Below are positions 4,744 through 33,779 of a stretch of DNA of 33,779 bases, in pieces (within the stretch, counting starts at the first letter, position 1; every line of letters begins with the position of its first letter). The notes beneath the pieces were generated by a model. That model was not told the DNA's origin, searched no databases, and was given only the letters and a program-made list of their open reading frames with translations. The stretch is from the IMG/VR virus record IMGVR_UViG_3300031975_000086, positions 1 through 33,779 of that record; one strand, written 5' to 3'. Origin of the DNA: a virus. The position numbers and the translations under genes are program-made.

Positions 4744-6315
4744 CTATGCTTGGTTTAGCCCTTGAAGCGTAGAATATGCTCCAATTCCAGCTAAAAACGG
4801 ATTCGTTTGAGCAACTGGAGATGTTTGATATTGATTGTACATACTAGCAGAAGGTGTGCCAGATAGCGCACTGTAAGCATAATTGTAAGGCATTAGAGCT
4901 TGTTGTGTATTTCTCATGCCCTCTTGTCTACCAATATCTATTCCTTGCTGTCTGTAATCTCTTCTACCCATTCCCAGTGAACCCATCATAGCGATGTCTG
5001 CTGGTGCAAGTTTTGAGTACGCAGTGCCAATATCAGCTCCTCTAGCAGCAAGATTACCGTATCTACCACCCATTTCACCCTGAGCAGAGCCAACAGCGCC
5101 TAGAGTCTGTCCTAGACCGCCATATAAGCGTCCTGCTTCTAAGTTGCGCTTCTTTTCATCTTCAGCTGCTTTAGCCTGTGCCTGTGCGCTAGAAAGACCC
5201 ATAGTTCTGTACATATCAGCCGCTTGTTGCAATCTTTTTTGACCGCTTTCAAACGCTGTTTGTCGAGCTTTATTTTCTGCATCAGTTATACCAGCTCCAA
5301 GTTGTCCTGCCGATAGATCTCTTTTCCTTGCGCCTTCAAATGCTGAAGTTTCAAGCCTAGCACCTTCTGCGCCTAACTTACCAGTTAGTCCTGCCGCTTC
5401 TAATGCTCTTCTTCTTGATGCTTCGTCTGCTGACATTGCAGATGATAACGATTGTGAATAACCGCTTGATAACAAGTCAGCTATGGTTTTATTTTTTGCA
5501 TCTTGAATATTTTTAGCAGTTTCTGCAGCTTGAACGCCTGTTCGAGAACCACCAAACGCTCCAGCGCCAATTGCACTAGCGTTCATTTTGTTCAGGGCTT
5601 GCTCACCTTGTTTATTGATCTCCTTCATAGCTTGATCAATAACCTGTTGTTTATAAGGGTCCATGAAAGATGTGACTGCTTGAGAAGGATCAAACTTACC
5701 AAGACCTTGTTTTGCTGTTTCTAAAGAAGGGTCAATCCTTCTGTCATATGTTTGTCTAGCGGCAAAATCACCTTGACCGCTTTGAATCGCTCTTATTGCA
5801 TCCTCATAAGAATCTACAGGAGGTTTATATGTTTCAGAACCTAAATCAGCCCTTAACTTTGCACCGCCAAGTTCAGTATCATACATTCCTTTAGCACCAA
5901 CAGCACCTGTTCCACTGTCAAGATATCTTTGAGCATCTGGGAAATAAGTTTTTGCCTGGCTTAATGTGTCTAGTCCAGCTGCAATACCAGATCCAGCTTC
6001 TTGTAAGTACCTTGGTCTTCCAGATGCGTCTAAGAAATATGGTTGATAGCGATTAACATACGCCTGTCTTTCCTCTGGAGTATCAAACATTCCATAAGCT
6101 GCTTGCTCTAAAGGATCTAACGCTGCTTGCTTGTATTCTGGTATGGTAAATAAATCAGGATATTTAGAAGCGTCTATTAAACCGCCAGTGTAGGTTACGT
6201 TACCTTCGTCATCTGTACTAGGTCTACCAAATATTTGATCTAATAAAAGCTGTTCACGTTGTTCAATGTATTCTGGACGACGATTTGTTGTTTGGACTGT
6301 AGTTGTTTCAGCCAT
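4744..6315 (-). CDS. Internal virion protein candidate, Ala/Gly/Gln-rich, 523 aa
   Basis: A 523-residue protein. The N-terminal half is rich in Tyr, Pro and Asp; the centre (about 215-400) is a long Ala/Gln/Glu/Arg-rich helical region in which short blocks of the type GARxxxxSAG recur; the C-terminal tail is rich in Gly, Tyr, Gln and Ser. A Gly-rich turn (S-A-I-G-A-G-A-F-G-G-S-R) near residue 250 is a pattern I recall from marine podovirus-like phages. No membrane segment or enzyme motif is seen. The start codon shares its A with the stop of the upstream gene (TAATG), with AAGGA upstream, so the two are translationally coupled. Best guess is an ejection or inner-core protein. Confidence 0.55.
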   Translation of the reverse strand: MAETTTVQTTNRRPEYIEQREQLLLDQIFGRPSTDDEGNVTYTGGLIDASKYPDLFTIPEYKQAALDPLEQAAYGMFDTPEERQAYVNRYQPYFLDASGRPRYLQEAGSGIAAGLDTLSQAKTYFPDAQRYLDSGTGAVGAKGMYDTELGGAKLRADLGSETYKPPVDSYEDAIRAIQSGQGDFAARQTYDRRIDPSLETAKQGLGKFDPSQAVTSFMDPYKQQVIDQAMKEINKQGEQALNKMNASAIGAGAFGGSRTGVQAAETAKNIQDAKNKTIADLLSSGYSQSLSSAMSADEASRRRALEAAGLTGKLGAEGARLETSAFEGARKRDLSAGQLGAGITDAENKARQTAFESGQKRLQQAADMYRTMGLSSAQAQAKAAEDEKKRNLEAGRLYGGLGQTLGAVGSAQGEMGGRYGNLAARGADIGTAYSKLAPADIAMMGSLGMGRRDYRQQGIDIGRQEGMRNTQQALMPYNYAYSALSGTPSASMYNQYQTSPVAQTNPFLAGIGAYSTLQGLNQA

Positions 6316-23316: not shown

Positions 23317-23991
23317 TTATTCCTCGTTATAAAGGTTATCGAAAACCTTGTTAACATCTAGTGTATAGTCTAAATCACTTTTTGAATAGTGTATATGTTG
23401 AGATGGTTTAAAATCAGGAGCGCCTTCTCCAATTTGAAACCAAGCAGGGTGAGTTACACGCACACGATTATTAGGTAACGCAACAACATTACCTGTCCAT
23501 TCCCCAGCATCTAATAGCTGAAGTACATGGTTTTGTTTATGTTGCGCTGGGTCATCTGCTATTTCTGATTCAGTGTAGTCTACAGTAAATAAATATTTTG
23601 CAGGATACATTTGACCATCTATTTTAGCCATCCAAGGGCAAGGAGTAGTTCTATCCATAACATAAACAGAGTTATAATGAGAGGCACAATCCCAAGGTTG
23701 TGCATCGTATGTTTCCATTGGCTCAGGCCATTCTTCTAAAGGAATGTCACCAACAAGCGCAGTTATGGGCATACGCGCCCACATAGCACCACCATGTACT
23801 GTGTCTTCTTTTTCTCCTTCAGCCTCATTCCCAGTGAATATAACCTGAAAACTTAAACATCTATTCGGTATTGTTGTCACACCAATAACCATAGCATGAA
23901 GAAATTCGCCGTGATAATTTTCATGGTTGTGAGTGTATTCACGACGAACCCATGCTTTAAAATAAGGTATATTGCTGTGCAAATAAGCCAT
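23317..23991 (-). CDS. Conserved structural-module protein, 224 aa
   Basis: A 224-residue protein rich in Trp, His and Tyr with no signal or membrane segment. Recognisable blocks are R-R-E-Y-T-H-N-H-E-N-Y-H-G-E-F, W-A-R-M-P-I-T-A-L, P-W-D-C-A-S-H-Y-N-S-V and R-V-T-H-P-A-W-F. I recall proteins with these blocks in marine phages including cyanophages, always within the head-tail module, with unknown function. The many His residues might bind metal, but no standard motif is clear. It follows the basic-protein cluster by 3 bases and leads directly into the gp4-like gene. Confidence 0.65.
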   Translation of the reverse strand: MAYLHSNIPYFKAWVRREYTHNHENYHGEFLHAMVIGVTTIPNRCLSFQVIFTGNEAEGEKEDTVHGGAMWARMPITALVGDIPLEEWPEPMETYDAQPWDCASHYNSVYVMDRTTPCPWMAKIDGQMYPAKYLFTVDYTESEIADDPAQHKQNHVLQLLDAGEWTGNVVALPNNRVRVTHPAWFQIGEGAPDFKPSQHIHYSKSDLDYTLDVNKVFDNLYNEE

Positions 23992-25619: not shown

Positions 25620-26126
25620 TTACTGGTCGGCAAACGCAGGTGCAGTTGCACCTGTAACAGTTCCAAAGATTTGATAGTTTGTAGAATCTTTACCAATAAT
25701 TGTAACATCAAACCCAGCAGGGACATTTAATTGAATACTGCTATTTGAGTTACCATCAGAAAATACTGCACTTACTTCATTATCAGTGTCTAAAAATGTT
25801 ACTCCGCCAACATAAAAATTAGTATTGCCTGGTGTGACAATTATCGCATCTGTTGCATCAGCCGCACCACCTGCATAAACAAATCTAAAAACAGATCCAG
25901 CAATTGGCGCTGGTAATGTATAAGTATTATCTTGACCACCATCTGGAACAAGCAAAACTCTTCCACTATGAGTGGCGTTAGTTAAGGTTACGTTACCATC
26001 TGAAAGACTTACAGGGCCATCACCGATTGTGGTAACCTCTGTAATTGTTCCAGTAGTAGAATCCTTGCTTATCGTTTTAAGTGTGGTTTCAGAGCGGACT
26101 GGACCGCTAAATGTTGTATTAGCCAT
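25620..26126 (-). CDS. Beta-rich virion protein after the capsid gene, 168 aa
   Basis: Begins A-N-T-T-F-S-G-P-V-R-S, a start I recall from marine phage structural proteins near the coat gene. The body is strand-rich and Thr/Gly/Asp-rich with G-D-G-P-V-S-L-S-D, Y-T-L-P-A-P-I-A-G and D-V-T-I-I-G-K-D-S, consistent with a trimeric beta-helix head decoration or fibre-base protein. AAGGAG lies 7 bases before the ATG. The leader contains two hairpins (separate entry), and the gene is bounded by terminator-like structures on both sides, so its amount may be set apart from its neighbours. Confidence 0.6.
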   Translation of the reverse strand: MANTTFSGPVRSETTLKTISKDSTTGTITEVTTIGDGPVSLSDGNVTLTNATHSGRVLLVPDGGQDNTYTLPAPIAGSVFRFVYAGGAADATDAIIVTPGNTNFYVGGVTFLDTDNEVSAVFSDGNSNSSIQLNVPAGFDVTIIGKDSTNYQIFGTVTGATAPAFADQ

Positions 26127-26152
26127 ATCAATCTCCTTGTCTTGGCAAATGT

Positions 26153-26191
26153 CAATCGCCCAATGCGATTGTCAAGGTATCTTTACGATAC
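26153..26191 (-). promoter_or_regulatory. Two hairpins in the leader of the 168-aa gene
   Basis: In transcript order: GUAUC-GUAAA-GAUAC (26191-26177, 5-bp stem), then CAAUCGC-AUUGG-GCGAUUG (26171-26153, 7-bp stem). CCUUG just before the second stem is complementary to CAAGG at the ribosome site of the next gene, so alternative pairing could hide that site. The whole stretch 26127-26220 otherwise holds no gene. Confidence 0.45.
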
Positions 26192-26220: not shown

Positions 26221-26382
26221 TTATTCGCTTGATTTTTCTTTAAGAACTAAACCAAATATAGCACAAACTATACCTGCCCACGTTAATATTGGCAGTGTTA
26301 GTAAAATGCCTAAACCAACACCAACGACAGCCGCAGCTCCATAACTTGAAGGCTCTTTTAATCTTCCTTTAATCCAATCCAT
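26221..26382 (-). CDS. Small membrane protein behind the capsid gene, 53 aa
   Basis: A 53-codon gene with AGGAG 6 bases before its ATG, standing in the gap after the major capsid gene and its hairpin. A basic N terminus (M-D-W-I-K-G-R-L-K-E) is followed by one long or two short membrane segments (about 14-46) rich in Val, Gly, Leu and Ile with a central Pro, and a K-E-K-S-S-E tail. No family recognised. Membrane proteins in a head operon are unusual; superinfection exclusion or an accessory holin are possibilities. The ribosome site and clean reading frame make it likely to be real. Confidence 0.7.
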   Translation of the reverse strand: MDWIKGRLKEPSSYGAAAVVGVGLGILLTLPILTWAGIVCAIFGLVLKEKSSE

Positions 26383-26402: not shown

Positions 26403-26431
26403 AAAAAAAGGCGACTTGAAGCCGCCTTTTT
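26403..26431 (-). terminator. Rho-independent terminator after the capsid gene
   Basis: In the minus-strand RNA, AAAAAGGCG pairs with CGCCUUUUU around a 9-base loop, giving a 4-bp GC core extended by A-U pairs and followed by U7. It begins about 20 bases after the stop of the major capsid gene and ends about 20 bases before the next start. It would lower transcription beyond the coat gene. No promoter of good quality follows, so read-through probably feeds the tail genes. Confidence 0.8.
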
Positions 26432-26450: not shown

Positions 26451-27359
26451 TTAAGCTCCTGGTGACCCATATACACAACGAGGATCACTGAATCCAAACG
26501 AGTAACGCTCACGAGCTTTAAATCTCATGTTACCTGTATCAAAGTCAGCTTCCATGTTTGTACGCATGGGTGAACGCTCAAAGTGTTTAAATCCATTTGG
26601 AGCGTCTGTTTTAATAAAGAACGCATCAGGGTCTGTTAAGAAGTGGTTAACTGTGTAACCCTCTGGAACCATTCCCATATTCTTTACTGCGTTGATGTCA
26701 TTATCAGCAGTGCTAGGACGTAAAGTCGATTCTAGCAAACGATCTGCAATGAATTGCAACTGAGGTGGAATTATCATTTTTGCTCCACGAAGGGCAATAA
26801 TCATATTTCTTTCATCTACAAAAGTTGAAATATCAATCAAAGCATTTTCTAACGATGTTTCGTTAAGATCAGCTGCAGTTGATGGTTCGTTTGCAAATGT
26901 ACCACCTGCACCAAGTGGGTGCGCTGTAGAACAAAGCTCTACACCATCTCCACCAGTGAAGCTTGAATTAAACGCATTGTTTAACACAGCAGCAGCTTTA
27001 ACCTGCTTAGTGTGAGCCATAGATCGGGCAAGAGCCTTTGTATAGCGTGCGCCAAGACGATCATATAGATTGTCTTCAATTGCTTCTTCAGTTAATGCGA
27101 AAGCCAAAGCGACGGTTTCATGCGAATAACGAGCAGTGTATGCTTCGTTAGCGTCATCAAAGTCGATTCCAGCTCCCTCAGTTTTTGTTGGAGCGTTGCC
27201 AAATCCAACCAACATCACTTCTTCTTCGAAAGCTCGATCCGAGGATTCTGTATCAAAGATTTCAGCGTGTTCGCCTTCATAACGAGCATACTCCATTCCG
27301 AACAAGGCATTGAGGCCCGGCTCTAGCTCTTTAACGAGTTGTGAACGTGATATAGCCAT
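26451..27359 (-). CDS. Major capsid protein, 302 aa
   Basis: A 302-residue coat protein, HK97 fold inferred. The N terminus (L-V-K-E-L-E-P-G-L-N-A-L-F-G) and the block E-D-N-L-Y-D-R-L-G-A-R-Y-T-K-A-L-A-R-S-M are those I recall from Mu gpT-like/marine phage coat proteins. So are A-A-A-V-L-N-N-A-F (about 120), C-S-T-A-H-P-L-G-A-G-G and the C-terminal R-Y-S-F-G-F-S-D-P-R. Its place after scaffold and decoration-like genes and before a strong terminator fits the most abundant virion protein. It builds the icosahedral shell. No prohead protease gene is visible in this window. AAGGAG precedes the start. Confidence 0.88.
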   Translation of the reverse strand: MAISRSQLVKELEPGLNALFGMEYARYEGEHAEIFDTESSDRAFEEEVMLVGFGNAPTKTEGAGIDFDDANEAYTARYSHETVALAFALTEEAIEDNLYDRLGARYTKALARSMAHTKQVKAAAVLNNAFNSSFTGGDGVELCSTAHPLGAGGTFANEPSTAADLNETSLENALIDISTFVDERNMIIALRGAKMIIPPQLQFIADRLLESTLRPSTADNDINAVKNMGMVPEGYTVNHFLTDPDAFFIKTDAPNGFKHFERSPMRTNMEADFDTGNMRFKARERYSFGFSDPRCVYGSPGA

Positions 27360-29411: not shown

Positions 29412-29906
29412 TTATACATATGAAATGTCTGTGGGGTCAAGTATTGTTGCAATAATATTGTCGTCATTTATGATACGAACCTCAAGTCCGTCCACTTTGA
29501 ACCTATTTCCACTATATCTTCCTATAAGAACCCATGACTTTTCAGAACACCACGAACCACTTGGGAACTTTTGGGCGTCTTTATAGGCATCAGGTCCTAA
29601 TTTAACGACATAAGCAGATACTGTTGCAAAACTTTCCTTTTCCCTAATAGCGTCAGGAACAATAATGCCCCCTTTTGTTTTTGCGCTGGGATAGTAAGGA
29701 ATAATCAAAACCCTATAACCAGTAGGCTGTGGAAGTCTTTCCAGGGCAGATGGCTCTAAATTAGAGGGGTCACTTTCATTTTTATTTTCTTCCTTCTTCT
29801 TACCAAATGCTGTTTCTAAGGGCTTTGGTAGTTCTGAAGAAACTTTTTTGTCTTTTGCCGCTGCTCTTGCAACGTGTTCTGGGACGAATAATTTCTTGTT
29901 AGTCAT
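29412..29906 (-). CDS. GroES-like co-chaperonin, 164 aa
   Basis: The ATG at 29906 is preferred over a TTG two codons earlier; GAG lies 7 bases upstream. Residues about 1-60 are a charged extension not found in bacterial GroES. From about 62 the Cpn10 fold is readable: G-Y-R-V-L-I-I-P, a mobile loop K-T-K-G-G-I-I-V-P-D, a core V-V-K-L-G-P-D-A-Y, then W-V-L-I-G-R-Y and I-I-N-D-D-N-I-I-A-T-I. The mobile loop normally binds GroEL through its hydrophobic tripeptide, here G-I-I-V. It likely adapts the host chaperonin to fold the coat protein, as T4 gp31 does. It sits between portal and scaffold genes, and its start overlaps the preceding stop by 8 bases. Confidence 0.82.
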   Translation of the reverse strand: MTNKKLFVPEHVARAAAKDKKVSSELPKPLETAFGKKKEENKNESDPSNLEPSALERLPQPTGYRVLIIPYYPSAKTKGGIIVPDAIREKESFATVSAYVVKLGPDAYKDAQKFPSGSWCSEKSWVLIGRYSGNRFKVDGLEVRIINDDNIIATILDPTDISYV

Positions 29907-30096
29907 CGTCAAGCTCTATACCTTTCATCGCGGTTTTAATTTCGTCTTCAACGTAGGCCATTCCGCGTATTTCGCCTACAACGTACCGATATTCTTCAAA
30001 TGATTTAATCGAATTGTCCGCAAGCTTATCTTTCAATCTACCATCGCGCTCACGAATACTTTTTAGTAGATAATCTGCTAAACTTATAGCTTCCAT
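29899..30096 (-). CDS. Small acidic helical protein, 65 aa
   Basis: A 65-residue, mostly helical protein: L-A-D-Y-L-L-K-S-I-R-E-R, then S-F-E-E-Y-R-Y-V-V-G-E-I-R-G-M and an acidic end (E-L-D-D-D). I recall similar small proteins before the co-chaperonin or scaffold in marine phages. A strong AGGAGG site lies 6 bases before the ATG, just touching a hairpin (separate entry). The end overlaps the co-chaperonin start. No function can be assigned. Confidence 0.65.
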   Translation of the reverse strand: MEAISLADYLLKSIRERDGRLKDKLADNSIKSFEEYRYVVGEIRGMAYVEDEIKTAMKGIELDDD

Positions 30097-30391: not shown

Positions 30392-30455
30392 TTTGAACAC
30401 CTCTTTTTGCTGCTCTTATTTGGTCTATAATTTTTTGTCTTACAGAAGAAACCAT
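30198..30455 (-). CDS. Overlapping Lys-rich helical protein, 85 aa
   Basis: Begins at the portal stop (TAATG) with AAAGGA 8 bases upstream, the best ribosome site here. The N-terminal half is an amphipathic helix (R-Q-K-I-I-D-Q-I-R-A-A-K-R-G-V-Q), the second half a histone-H1-like Lys/Ala/Thr tail. Its codons are AT-ending like the rest of the phage, unlike the other frame in the overlap. So both frames look coding: this one by start signal and codon use, the 77-aa one by its recognised motif. I do not know relatives of this protein. It could alternatively be a leader that only couples ribosomes to the downstream frame. Confidence 0.6.
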   Translation of the reverse strand: MVSSVRQKIIDQIRAAKRGVQSAVEKGVESANDSIQRVQADIRGVSSEASSSDSVEPKKEVKKTKPKAKAKKSTKKSAGRSDKKG

Positions 30456-32905
30456 TAATTCATTCCTTTTTGTCTAGCATTAAATTCAGCAATGTCTCTT
30501 TGAGTTTGAATGCGATCTTCTGCAATTCTAGTTTTGTCTTTCAACGCATCTTCTGAAATATCAATACGCTGTTGAGCAATAAGAGTATCATTACGCTCTT
30601 TTTCTTTCTCCATTTCTTGCCTTGCTACAAACTCATCGTCTTTACGCTGTAAGTCAGCAGCTTTAATTTGCAATTCCTGTTGCCTAATTGCAACAAGAGG
30701 ATCTTCTTGTGGTGGTGGTGTTACAGCTTGCGCTAACTGTTCTGTTGTGTCTGCAATGATTTGTGCTGCAATTTTATCAATTTGTGGTTTGATTTGTTGC
30801 ATCATCATTTCCATTTGCTGTGGATCTTGTTGCACTTCAGGTGGAATACCCTGCATAACCTGTGCTTGTGCTTGCGCTTCTGACATAAGGCCAATGTGTT
30901 CTTGAATATGACCTTGAAGAGCCATAACAGCATTTGGGTTCATTTGAACCGCAGATGTAGCCATAACAGCTAAATGTGTTTCTATATGTGCCTGATGGTC
31001 TTGCTCTGGAAAAGCTTGCAATGGTTGACCCATAAGAGCGTTTTGGTTTTCTTTTGCAGCATTAACAGGGGGAGGCGGTGGCGGTGGAGGCGGCAATATA
31101 GCCTCAATATTGGTTACACCTAAAGCCTCATACATTTTTCTGTATGCTTGATAAAGTCCTTGTGGCCCACCATGTATTTCTGGATTAGACTGTACTAACT
31201 GCAATTCACTTTGAGCCAGTGCAATTCTTTGTGACATGGAGAATATATTAGGATCACTGGCTGGTAAAACATCTACACGTCTATCAAAGTCTTGTGCTTT
31301 AATTTCTGGGCCTACCTCCATAGACGGAGCATAAGGATAAGGCTGTAAGCCCTCACCAAATATCTTAGCTAGTAATTTAAATTCTATCTTTTGTGAATAA
31401 TGCAATCTCTTATGAATTGCAGACATAACTTTTGTACCACGCTCCATAATCGCCATTGTTGTGCCAACAGGTGTTTCACCACCCATCTCACCTATTTTTA
31501 AATCAGCCATAGAAGCAAATCTACGTCCGGCATCGACCAAAGTACCTAAAAGATTGTAAAGGGTGCCTGACGGCTCTTTAAACGGCAATGGCATAAGAGA
31601 ACCGCGTAAGTCTCCACCTACTACGTCAATGTCTCTAAACTCTCCTGGTTGCAATGGATCGTCATCGTTTCGAATACGAGCGCCACGCGCTTTAAATCCT
31701 GCTGGTAAGTTAGCTAATGTGCCAGCGTCAATAAGCTGACGTAAAATAGAGGTAGAAGCTTGAGCTAGACCGCCAATCATATGTGTTAAGCCAAGGCCAT
31801 AAAAACCAAGACCAGGCAAAAACTTATAATGAACAAAATATTGTTTCTGACGCTTCATAGGTTCTATTTCATCATAGTTGCGTCTAATGCTTAATATCTC
31901 ATTGTTATCTTCAAGAATAGTTACAATGTAAGGGAGTTTTAATCCTGTTTGCTCTTGATCCATACCAACATCTTCAAAACCCTCTAGGTCCAAAGATGTA
32001 TGTATTTCGTATAAAACTAAATCACGAGATGCGTTAGAAGGATGTACGCCCTGAATGTCATCAATTGACTCAGTAACTTCATTTGAATCTGACTCACCAT
32101 AACCATCTTCAGGAATATCAATATCGCTATAAAAACCAGCTAACTGCAGCTTTCTAACTTCGTTTGAATCCATAGATATTCTATGCGTAATGCGTGGAGA
32201 AGACGCTAAGTCTGTCGCTCCATAAGGAACAATAAGATCTTCAGCGTGAATAAACTTACTTACGGCACGCTGCTTTAAAGGATCAAAATAAACTTTCTTA
32301 AATGTAGACCCAATTACAGGAAGATAAAAAAGCATTTGATCTAACTCAGGATCATACTCTTCCATCTCATAAGTAATCATATAATTCATATAATCTTTAA
32401 CACGCTCTGCTTGCTTAACAAGCATTTCGTTCTGCGCTCCAATAACTTGCGCTCGAACAGGCCCAGAAGCTGGAAGTAGCTCACGATAAGCTTGCGCTTG
32501 GAATTGCGTAACTGATTCAGCCAATAGCGGGTGTATTACCCCAGAAGCACCCTCAAAAGGTTCTGTTCTGTCTTCTGTTTGCATTCCTAAAAACTCAAGA
32601 CCCTTTTTATAAGTGTCTTCCCAGTCTTCTCTTGAAGACAAGTCGTCTAAAATAGATCCAACAAGATCTGACGATAGCCGTCCAAGAGCGTCTTCTTCCA
32701 TAACTTCTGCTAAATTACCATCAAAAGGAATTTGCGGAGGAGTATCTTCTGAAGATTCATACTCGCCAATAACGGCGCTGCCGTCATTAAATTCAAAAAC
32801 ACCTGGGTCAGCAGGTATTTCGGTCACCTCAACAGGAACTTGTTGGTTTGGTACTACAGGTATTTCAGGTATACCACCTGGACCCATATCATCTTCAATA
32901 GCCAT
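30455..32905 (-). CDS. Portal protein, 816 aa
   Basis: A P22-type large portal (P22: 725 residues). Features are an acidic, Pro-rich N terminus; L-L-P-A-S-G-P-V-R-A-Q-V and M-N-Y-M-I-T-Y-E-M (clip/wing region, about 140-180); a central F-V-H-Y-K-F-L-P-G-L-G-F-Y-G-L-G (about 350); T-L-A-N-L-P-A-G-F-K-A-R-G (about 395) and G-T-T-M-A-I-M-E-R-G. These resemble phrases of podovirus portals. A run of about nine prolines near 620 starts a long Gln/Glu-rich helical tail, which may be the barrel inside the head. The dodecamer is the DNA gate and the terminase docking site. AGGAG before the ATG overlaps the stop of the 33-codon ORF. It lies three small genes after the terminase. Confidence 0.88.
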   Translation of the reverse strand: MAIEDDMGPGGIPEIPVVPNQQVPVEVTEIPADPGVFEFNDGSAVIGEYESSEDTPPQIPFDGNLAEVMEEDALGRLSSDLVGSILDDLSSREDWEDTYKKGLEFLGMQTEDRTEPFEGASGVIHPLLAESVTQFQAQAYRELLPASGPVRAQVIGAQNEMLVKQAERVKDYMNYMITYEMEEYDPELDQMLFYLPVIGSTFKKVYFDPLKQRAVSKFIHAEDLIVPYGATDLASSPRITHRISMDSNEVRKLQLAGFYSDIDIPEDGYGESDSNEVTESIDDIQGVHPSNASRDLVLYEIHTSLDLEGFEDVGMDQEQTGLKLPYIVTILEDNNEILSIRRNYDEIEPMKRQKQYFVHYKFLPGLGFYGLGLTHMIGGLAQASTSILRQLIDAGTLANLPAGFKARGARIRNDDDPLQPGEFRDIDVVGGDLRGSLMPLPFKEPSGTLYNLLGTLVDAGRRFASMADLKIGEMGGETPVGTTMAIMERGTKVMSAIHKRLHYSQKIEFKLLAKIFGEGLQPYPYAPSMEVGPEIKAQDFDRRVDVLPASDPNIFSMSQRIALAQSELQLVQSNPEIHGGPQGLYQAYRKMYEALGVTNIEAILPPPPPPPPPVNAAKENQNALMGQPLQAFPEQDHQAHIETHLAVMATSAVQMNPNAVMALQGHIQEHIGLMSEAQAQAQVMQGIPPEVQQDPQQMEMMMQQIKPQIDKIAAQIIADTTEQLAQAVTPPPQEDPLVAIRQQELQIKAADLQRKDDEFVARQEMEKEKERNDTLIAQQRIDISEDALKDKTRIAEDRIQTQRDIAEFNARQKGMN

Positions 32906-32914
32906 TTAAATCTC

Positions 32915-33016
32915 CTATATAGGTGTTGAGGTGAAATTGCATCCGCCAACTATGACTGTAGGGAGGTAACCACTCATAGTTATCTTACTCCACCCCAACC
33001 TCGAAACTTGAAACAT
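32915..33016 (-). CDS. 33-aa ORF in the portal leader
   Basis: A 33-codon frame starting F-Q-V-S-R-L-G-W-S-K and ending G-G-C-N-F-T-S-T-P-I. It has AGGA 6 bases before the ATG and a stop that overlaps the portal's AGGAG. The region is also unusually foldable: the ribosome site and start lie in the loop of CUUGAAA/UUUCAAG (33033-33007), and the ORF contains AACUAUGA/UCAUAGUU (32981-32974 with 32955-32948) nested in UUGGGGUG/CACCUCAA (32998-32991 with 32933-32926). It may be a true small protein, a leader peptide controlling portal translation, or a structured RNA with a chance ORF. The spacing argues for coding. Confidence 0.5.
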   Translation of the reverse strand: MFQVSRLGWSKITMSGYLPTVIVGGCNFTSTPI

Positions 33017-33035
33017 TAAAAATCCTTTTCAAGTA

Positions 33036-33227
33036 TTATTTTACGCCAGAAAATCTGGTTCCACGCAAAGCAGCGCCACCACCACGAGCATTACCCGCAC
33101 CAGTTCCGCCCTCAATTGGAGCCTTTTTCACTTTCTCATAAGATTGAGTCATAACACCCATTTTATTTTGGCTATTGCCATCTGTGGGTGTCTTAGGTGT
33201 CTTAACCATACCGCTATCTTCTTTCAT
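33036..33227 (-). CDS. Small basic protein with C-terminal RGTRFSGVK, 63 aa
   Basis: A polar, Lys/Gly/Thr-rich 63-residue protein, probably disordered in its first half (V-K-T-P-K-T-P-T-D-G-N-S-Q), with M-T-Q-S-Y-E-K-V-K-K-A-P and a C-terminal G-G-G-A-A-L-R-G-T-R-F-S-G-V-K. The same kind of ending is on the 129-aa protein next door and on the 77-aa protein at 30158. The start overlaps the preceding stop (TAATG), and AAAGGAG lies inside that gene's last codons. No function known; position between terminase and portal suggests a packaging or head-assembly role. Confidence 0.6.
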   Translation of the reverse strand: MKEDSGMVKTPKTPTDGNSQNKMGVMTQSYEKVKKAPIEGGTGAGNARGGGAALRGTRFSGVK

Positions 33228-33616
33228 TACTTTACTCCTTTAAAATTGCCACCACGACCAGCCATAACACAACCGCCGCCTTTATACTTTTTAACTTTGC
33301 CCTTTTTAACCTCACCACCATACATCATGCCTTGAGGTCTAGCTCTTGGCCTAATAGATTTTGTAACGCCTCTACCTAAAGCCATGTTTATAGCGTCCAT
33401 ATCAAGATCAGACATTTTTGCACCAGAGTCTAGTGCTTCCATTGCAGAAGCTCTATTGCCACGGGCAACAGCTTCACCCTCTGCTAACTCTTGTAAAAGT
33501 CGCATAATCAATTGGCTTTCTTTAACACCTTGATTTCCTTTTTCTTGAACATTTTTTCCACCTAGTGCCGTAGAAAGATTTTTTATTCTGTCTTTTAATA
33601 AATTATTTCCTGCCAT
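33227..33616 (-). CDS. Basic protein with GGG...FKGVK end, 129 aa
   Basis: The N-terminal ~85 residues are helical and mixed in charge (L-L-K-D-R-I-K-N-L, S-Q-L-I-M-R-L-L-Q-E-L-A-E-G-E-A, M-S-D-L-D-M-D-A-I-N-M-A-L). The C-terminal ~40 are basic and Gly-rich (R-A-R-P-Q-G-M-M-Y-G-G-E, K-Y-K-G-G-G-C-V-M-A-G-R-G-G-N-F-K-G-V-K). I recall small proteins with such Gly-rich basic ends, in many copies, in marine phage genomes. It follows the terminase stop by 11 bases with AAAGGAG. Function unknown; a small packaging or head protein is plausible. Confidence 0.6.
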   Translation of the reverse strand: MAGNNLLKDRIKNLSTALGGKNVQEKGNQGVKESQLIMRLLQELAEGEAVARGNRASAMEALDSGAKMSDLDMDAINMALGRGVTKSIRPRARPQGMMYGGEVKKGKVKKYKGGGCVMAGRGGNFKGVK

Positions 33617-33627
33617 CTTACTCTCCT

Positions 33628-33779
33628 TTAATAATACTCTCTACGTTTGCTATAAGCATATTCATCGTCGTCATCATAATCGGTGGGTGTTGTAATAAAA
33701 CCACCTTGTCTAAATCTTAGTATAGCCTGTGTCATCGAATCTGCCAAGTCATCATGTTCACCATTGGGAAAAGAAGCAC
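33628..33779 (-). CDS. Terminase large subunit, C-terminal end (partial)
   Basis: A frame open to the right edge ends with TAA at 33628. The visible 49 residues read A-S-F-P-N-G-E-H-D-D-L-A-D-S-M-T-Q-A-I-L-R-F-R-Q, then an acidic D-Y-D-D-D-D-E-Y tail. The F-P-N-G-x-H-D-D-x-x-D-[AS] phrase is characteristic of the end of the large terminase nuclease domain, whose last Asp helps bind the catalytic metals. The order terminase-portal-scaffold-coat supports this. The ATPase part lies outside the window. Confidence 0.8.
   Translation of the reverse strand, partial: ASFPNGEHDDLADSMTQAILRFRQGGFITTPTDYDDDDEYAYSKRREYY

Follow-up and report, generated by a model that had tools for sequence, protein, structure and literature searches.

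The portal gene and its leader

The window, by which we mean the whole 33,779-nt stretch analysed here (positions 1 to 33,779 of IMG/VR record IMGVR_UViG_3300031975_000086), carries a portal gene on its minus strand, and the phage group that bears the leader element described below is marine. A gap at 33035-32906 (minus strand) separates the portal gene from a 63-aa ORF, and the features around it are as follows.

30455-32905, minus strand: portal gene (PF23899, E 9.3e-11; phrog_1216, E 1e-41)
32905-32903, minus strand: portal ATG, from the sequence
32912-32916, minus strand: portal Shine-Dalgarno (SD) AGGAG, from the sequence
33036-33227, minus strand: 63-aa upstream ORF, its stop 36 nt before helix P1
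32915-33016, minus strand: leader ORF of 33 codons, ATG at 33016-33014, stop TAG at 32917-32915
33034-33027/33013-33006, minus strand: inverted repeat IR1, ACTTGAAA/TTTCAAGT, with a 13-nt loop
33006-33034, minus strand: upstream hairpin ACTTGAAA-AGGATTTTTAATG-TTTCAAGT, with the leader-ORF SD and ATG in its loop; none of its 29 sites varies among 6 variants

The IR1 loop holds an AGGA (33026-33023) together with the leader-ORF ATG. Two further repeats are nested, IR2 (= P2) within IR3 (= P1); both fall inside the leader ORF, the TAG of which overlaps the portal SD at 32916-32912. This is the arrangement that the initial annotation had described (three inverted repeats before the portal, AGGA and the ATG of a 33-codon ORF in the loop of the first, the other two nested inside that ORF, and an ORF stop overlapping the portal ribosome site), and all of it could be located on the minus strand. 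A promoter and terminator scan of 32700-33779 returned none in the leader. Elsewhere in the window, a GroES-like co-chaperonin gene (29412-29912, minus strand, phrog_3188) and a ferredoxin-like gene (23317-23991, minus strand, phrog_3704) stand among the virion genes.

Taken by itself, the window sequence is only suggestive of a leader fold. The whole 161-nt leader folds with a z of -1.25, and 22 of 200 shuffles fold equally well; the P1-P2 core alone reaches a z of -3.41, equalled by 1 of 200. Within 130 nt there are two perfect repeats 8 bp or longer; 10 of 1000 shuffles have as many, and so do 11 of 518 overlapping stretches of this length taken from the window. Since the 161-nt fold is unremarkable, relatives were needed.

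The hairpin around the leader-ORF start, proposed from the window alone, did not carry over as a general feature: it occurs only in the window's clade and is absent from the sister clade (L219/L358/L361/L362). Within the window's clade, IR1 is identical in all 6 variants, while the end of the neighbouring gene varies at 18 of 121 sites. IR1 being invariant, it offers no covariation; its sequence is constrained, and the hairpin itself is a prediction.

A three-way junction before the portal start

Portal loci were drawn from viral contigs (four portal queries), bacterial genome contigs and named phages, and confirmed by tblastn. A portal start was found at 381 loci, at 15 of which the upstream DNA was too short; the element was present at 264 loci (61 distinct leaders) and absent at 102 (45 distinct). 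The distinct counts are the meaningful ones because some contigs were fetched more than once. Later counts use 60 distinct leaders, leaving out L154/L385, a degenerate member whose P1 (GGAGCGAAGG/..CTTCGCTCC) lacks the GUUG/CAAC end and which the covariance model R1 does not match at E up to 0.1. Of the 48 distinct matches from two portal-blind pattern scans, 47 lie immediately upstream of a portal ORF. One pattern match, at 5050-5155 of an IMG isolate viral record (L295; R1 23.1 bits), has no portal downstream and comes from a scan of 2.9 million contigs; we take it as a chance match.

In the window, the element has the following parts.

32925-32999, minus strand: conserved leader element, P1 to P1' (R1 match 32923-33001)
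32987-32999, minus strand: P1 5' strand GTTGGGGTGGAGT, 13 bp with 32925-32937
32925-32937, minus strand: P1 3' strand ATTTCACCTCAAC, its 3' end 19 nt before the portal ATG
32974-32982, minus strand: P2 5' strand, folds with 32947-32955
32947-32955, minus strand: P2 3' strand, folds with 32974-32982
32961-32965, minus strand: anti-SD-like CUCCC of the P2 loop, shared by 59 of 60 distinct leaders
32938-32946, minus strand: junction strand, where relatives have helix P3, deleted in the window (R1 alignment)

Across the family, the element is a three-way junction of 75-103 nt made of P1, P2 with its CUCCC loop, and P3. P1 is mostly 9-14 bp long, with GUUG at its 5' end and CAAC at its 3' end; the CUCCC is near-invariant whereas the P2 stem varies; and P3 is GCUC/GAGC with a 2-nt bulge (U-N). 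The distance from the end of P1' to the portal ATG is 16-22 nt in the 60 distinct leaders and 18-19 nt in 50 of them. P1, P2 and place are what define the family, and P3 is usual but not required: in relatives 98.7-100% of P3 cells are paired (alignment A4, below), while the window fills 0 of 30 hidden P3 positions in the R1 alignment and P3 is deleted across its clade. The P3 sequence of L014-type and L096-type leaders, GCUC...GGUAGAGC, is letter for letter that of a tRNA D-stem and part of its loop; no other tRNA features were noticed in these leaders, and the likeness is probably a coincidence.

R1 was built from 32 relatives that exclude the window's clade, and it contains neither SD nor ATG. 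It nevertheless finds the window leader at 33001-32923 (33.8 bits, E 1.2e-6; next best E 1.1), which places this leader in the junction RNA family as defined here. In seven element-bearing records, and in the L295 record as well, R1 matched strongly once each, and it gave no match below E 0.3 on 79 element-less loci (622 kb); the whole records of HTVC023P, HTVC027P, 023Pt_psg01, DSL-LC04, CRP-902 and GB2A are without the element by this model. In 295 bacterial genomes (the family of the MAG carrying L082, with stricter filters) R1 matched once, in L082's own MAG, with the score of the L082 element and on a short contig where a portal gene follows; we therefore set aside a bacterial origin.

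Rfam 15 at gathering score gave no match in the leader regions of the window, L014, L031, L082 and L025, and for the window leader and L096 a relaxed threshold gave only matches far below cut-off. The window leader matched none of the known riboswitch aptamers in Rfam 15, B12 included. The titles and abstract openings of the literature we searched describe no RNA leader of a portal gene, and the word 'portal' does not occur in the main text of PMC2864571. The junction RNA is new relative to Rfam 15, through which alone a 2017 list of 224 candidate RNAs was covered.

The stems covary. In alignment A2, whose 32 representatives do not include the window's clade, 96.9% of P1 cells, 96.4% of P3 cells and 57.3% of P2 cells are paired, and covariation is 0.344 against 0.206 in shuffles, with 0 of 500 shuffles as high. 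Alignment A4 (53 distinct leaders), which leans towards structure because it was fitted to the model, has 89.7% of its cells paired, and both sides have changed in 18 of its 27 pairs; in P1 these figures are 97.2% and 6 of 12. Its covariation of 0.404 compares with 0.211 +/- 0.009 in shuffles and at most 0.163 in slid versions; a further measure on A4, 'further pair types', was not unusual (70 of 500 shuffles). The compensatory changes whose absence would have counted against the initial annotation are thus present.

An alignment-free test gave the same answer. When 5' and 3' arms were paired among 19 representatives less than 85% alike (18 for P3), cognate arms bound better than non-cognate ones in P1 (-20.15 vs -15.77 kcal/mol), P2 (-10.99 vs -5.74) and P3 (-5.57 vs -4.48), with 0 of 100000 permutations as good in each case. 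The claim for P2 rests mainly on this test because MAFFT and the model align P2 inconsistently (57-69% of cells paired). At P1 positions the 19 representatives have 194 Watson-Crick pairs, 28 G-U, 0 A-C and 6 other; the excess of G-U over A-C argues that the portal-sense RNA is what selection acts on. Together with weaker antisense folding (mean z -2.36, against -3.64 for sense), it also rules out a DNA palindrome or packaging site. Comparison with relatives settles, at the level of sequence, that the leader structure is real: the portal-sense RNA is predicted to fold into a conserved junction whose spacing to the portal start is nearly constant.

On a tree of 75 portals (a quick tree with a midpoint root, in which the branches leading to L353 and to the named phages are long), the element label needs 3 changes, against 24.1 in shuffles. 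Two groups bear the element; one clade of 24 rows and L200 do not, and because it was lost there the element is dispensable. Among the 45 distinct element-less leaders, 28 have a portal ATG that abuts or overlaps the upstream stop. By eye, five element-less leaders (L044, L045, L046, L064, L065) have GTTG...CAACAC and an L031-type-like tail before the portal, an apparent deletion remnant of P1, and in four others (L075, L078-L080) this position holds a 7-bp hairpin, which likewise looks like a remnant.

A reading frame through the junction

The leader ORF does not look like a gene for a useful peptide. Its 13 variable sites in the window's clade are spread 4/6/3 over the codon positions and comprise 12 replacement changes and 1 silent one, compared with 104 replacement and 326 silent in the first 700 codons of the portal (Fisher p 7e-7); the leader peptide is therefore not conserved, with the proviso that RNA constraint could also lower the silent count. 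This rules out a conserved peptide, and with it the idea that the ORF acts through its product. A leader-peptide attenuator was likewise rejected, as a conserved peptide or codon run is absent and the element length differs modulo 3 between lineages. The overlap of ORF stop and portal SD was not kept either: 3 of 6 window-clade variants have lost it and have a TAA abutting the portal ATG instead.

The frame itself is kept. Set by the UUG in P1, it runs stop-free through the element in 53 of 60 leaders, against 3 and 14 for the other two; this comparison was made after the data had been seen, with the frame fixed by that UUG and three frames possible, and its counts are not independent events because the leaders are related. 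Among the 19 representatives, the open leaders number 17, 1 and 4 by frame. Dinucleotide shuffles of these 19 leave 6.1 +/- 2.0 open and at most 12 in 500, and a structure-preserving null, in which each pair and column is sampled from the family itself, leaves 7.8 +/- 2.1 and at most 15, with 17 reached in 0 of 2000. Stops occur in 3 alignment columns in the kept frame and in 18 and 12 in the others. Lineages do not share one element length modulo 3, so the codons in which the 3' half is read change from lineage to lineage, and yet this half stays open: 18 of 19 3' halves are open in their own frame, against 1 and 9 in the others, and chimeric halves are open in 178 of 194 cases with the native 3'-half frame and in 33 of 148 with a non-native one. 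The view that the ORF is incidental is overturned by these tests, and the frame conservation in relatives on which the initial annotation had also staked its case is borne out.

In all 53 open leaders, the stop of the kept frame falls -15 to +17 nt from the portal ATG. The candidate start of the frame differs between leaders: in 21 of 60 it is an ATG overlapping the stop of the upstream gene (TAATG), the window's clade has its own AGGA and ATG (6 of 60), and L014-type leaders have no ATG and only UUG starts, the UUG being one base after the upstream stop in 5 rows (five more rows of this type were assigned by script to another stop). If ATG-started ORFs in any frame are counted, they cross 41 of 61 leaders and none crosses the other 20. 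Seven of 60 leaders have an in-frame stop inside the element; L220 and L148 among them have a later ATG in the same frame, and the other five are closed (the L358/L360, L361 and L362/L364 types, and the L150/L280 and L151 types). Altogether, these comparisons show one frame through the predicted junction that has been kept open without conservation of a peptide and that closes at the portal start. An open frame that ends at a downstream start is what a translated leader would have.

Possible roles in portal synthesis and related systems

We put at about even the chance that this RNA is a translated, structured, cis-acting leader of the portal mRNA that relays ribosomes and gates portal translation. 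The leader would be translated by ribosomes finishing the upstream gene or, in the window's clade, by ribosomes loading at its own AGGA and ATG; in crossing it they would melt the junction and stop beside the portal start, where they or others could then initiate on the portal. In a leader left untranslated the junction would fold and de novo initiation on the portal would be lowered, perhaps through a CUCCC loop docked on the portal SD or through a presented binding site. Such an arrangement would couple portal output to the ribosomes arriving from upstream. We infer every step that goes beyond the leader being translatable, and control of portal dose by the leader is putative. In the 19 representatives, the predicted mean unpaired probability of the portal SD is 0.50 with the element and 0.47 without it, and that of the portal AUG is 0.69 and 0.70. 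This unchanged accessibility speaks against a relay, as do the lack of a cognate excess in loop-SD pairing, the closed leaders, the L014-type leaders without an ATG and the losses of the element. The translational-control layout proposed in the initial annotation holds up in part: a structured leader with covarying stems and an open frame (53 of 60) is there, but the predicted stems do not hide the portal SD.

A translational operator, at which a phage or host protein (for example the portal or a head protein, autogenously) blocks the 30S site, would account for the compact junction with its near-invariant unpaired motifs (CUCCC and the U-N bulge in P3), for a fold that is self-contained and does not occlude the SD, and for the near-fixed spacing and strict linkage to the portal. 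Its binding partner is putative, P3 is lost in the window's clade, and the kept-open frame is left unexplained unless it limits polarity or is incidental, so that we regard an operator as unlikely, if a serious contender. The translated leader is favoured because it accounts for both the fold and the open frame, and an operator for the fold only. Rather less probable is a pseudoknot between the P2-loop CUCCC and the portal SD as the main off-state, opened by leader translation or by a ligand. In each of the 19 representatives loop and SD can form a duplex (-3.1 to -7.3 kcal/mol), and the motif persists over a variable stem; yet cognate loop-SD pairs (-4.93 kcal/mol) are hardly better than non-cognate ones (-4.84), 16959 of 50000 permutations being as good, and loop and SD may each be conserved for other reasons.

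The helix, mostly 9-14 bp at a gene junction, would also suit an element for mRNA processing or stability between the upstream gene and the portal (an RNase site or 5'-end protector), which would need neither the 16-22 nt spacing nor a kept frame and strikes us as very unlikely. It is more improbable still that the junction is a separate small RNA, such as a packaging RNA that works with the portal and whose gene merely precedes it: a three-way junction tied to portal genes only would fit, but the near-fixed ATG spacing and the open frame fit an mRNA leader, and an Rfam match is absent. A chance fold over a chance ORF, to which the weak single-sequence signal (z -1.25) would be congenial, is scarcely credible in the face of the independent R1 match, the arm test, the covariation and the frame test.

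In the autogenous translational operators of T4 gp32, P22 scaffolding protein and MS2 coat protein, structure beside the start codon of a phage gene serves as a control site. The portal leader resembles them in position, with a binding protein that is only putative here, and none of the three is known to us to have a three-way junction with a kept reading frame. Another conserved phage RNA, Mu-gpT-DE (RF03012), occurs in the window at 26124-26177 (minus strand, 65.5 bits). Both the SD and the ATG of a gene that follows the major head protein gene (26451-27359) and occupies 25620-26126 fall within its model, so that two head-module genes of the window have an RNA element over or beside their start. 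Mu-gpT-DE differs from the portal leader in fold and place, and homology between the two was not detected: its model matches the portal leader only partially (14.3 bits against a cut-off of 49). By eye, a strong, terminator-like hairpin with a T run lies just after the major head protein gene (26403-26428, minus strand), and between it and the Mu-gpT-DE gene there is a small ORF (ATG at 26382) preceded by an SD of its own.

Closer parallels come from translated leaders. According to PMC11260477, the ppe2 and metE B12-riboswitch leaders of M. tuberculosis are likewise folded and crossed by a short translated ORF, and downstream expression at ppe2 depends on translation of that uORF and on termination-reinitiation; the portal leader is phage-borne and portal-tied, with no B12 aptamer or other Rfam match. 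Translational coupling by RNA unfolding or reinitiation, as described in a review (PMC12548453), also involves an upstream ORF ending at a downstream start, and short ORFs there may only deliver ribosomes; unlike those systems, the portal leader has a junction of 75-103 nt inside the delivering ORF, and its SD is not predicted to be hidden. The portal leader would accordingly belong to a known type, the translated leader, as an RNA absent from Rfam 15 whose frame is kept and indifferent to its peptide.

Each virion has a single portal ring, and to our knowledge it is rarely understood how phages hold portal synthesis low relative to that of the capsid protein. We suggest tentatively, at somewhat less than even odds, that the fold and the peptide-indifferent frame are both under selection and that what sets portal synthesis is translation of the leader rather than its product. 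The leader would then be a gate, worked by ribosomes, for a protein present in 12 copies per virion, and would have been lost where the portal start is directly coupled to the upstream stop. The element is a gene-specific RNA of a marine phage group, and its sister lineages provide a natural experiment because they lost it, mostly placing the portal start on the upstream stop codon. If the proposal is true, translation of a leader whose peptide is irrelevant would set portal output.
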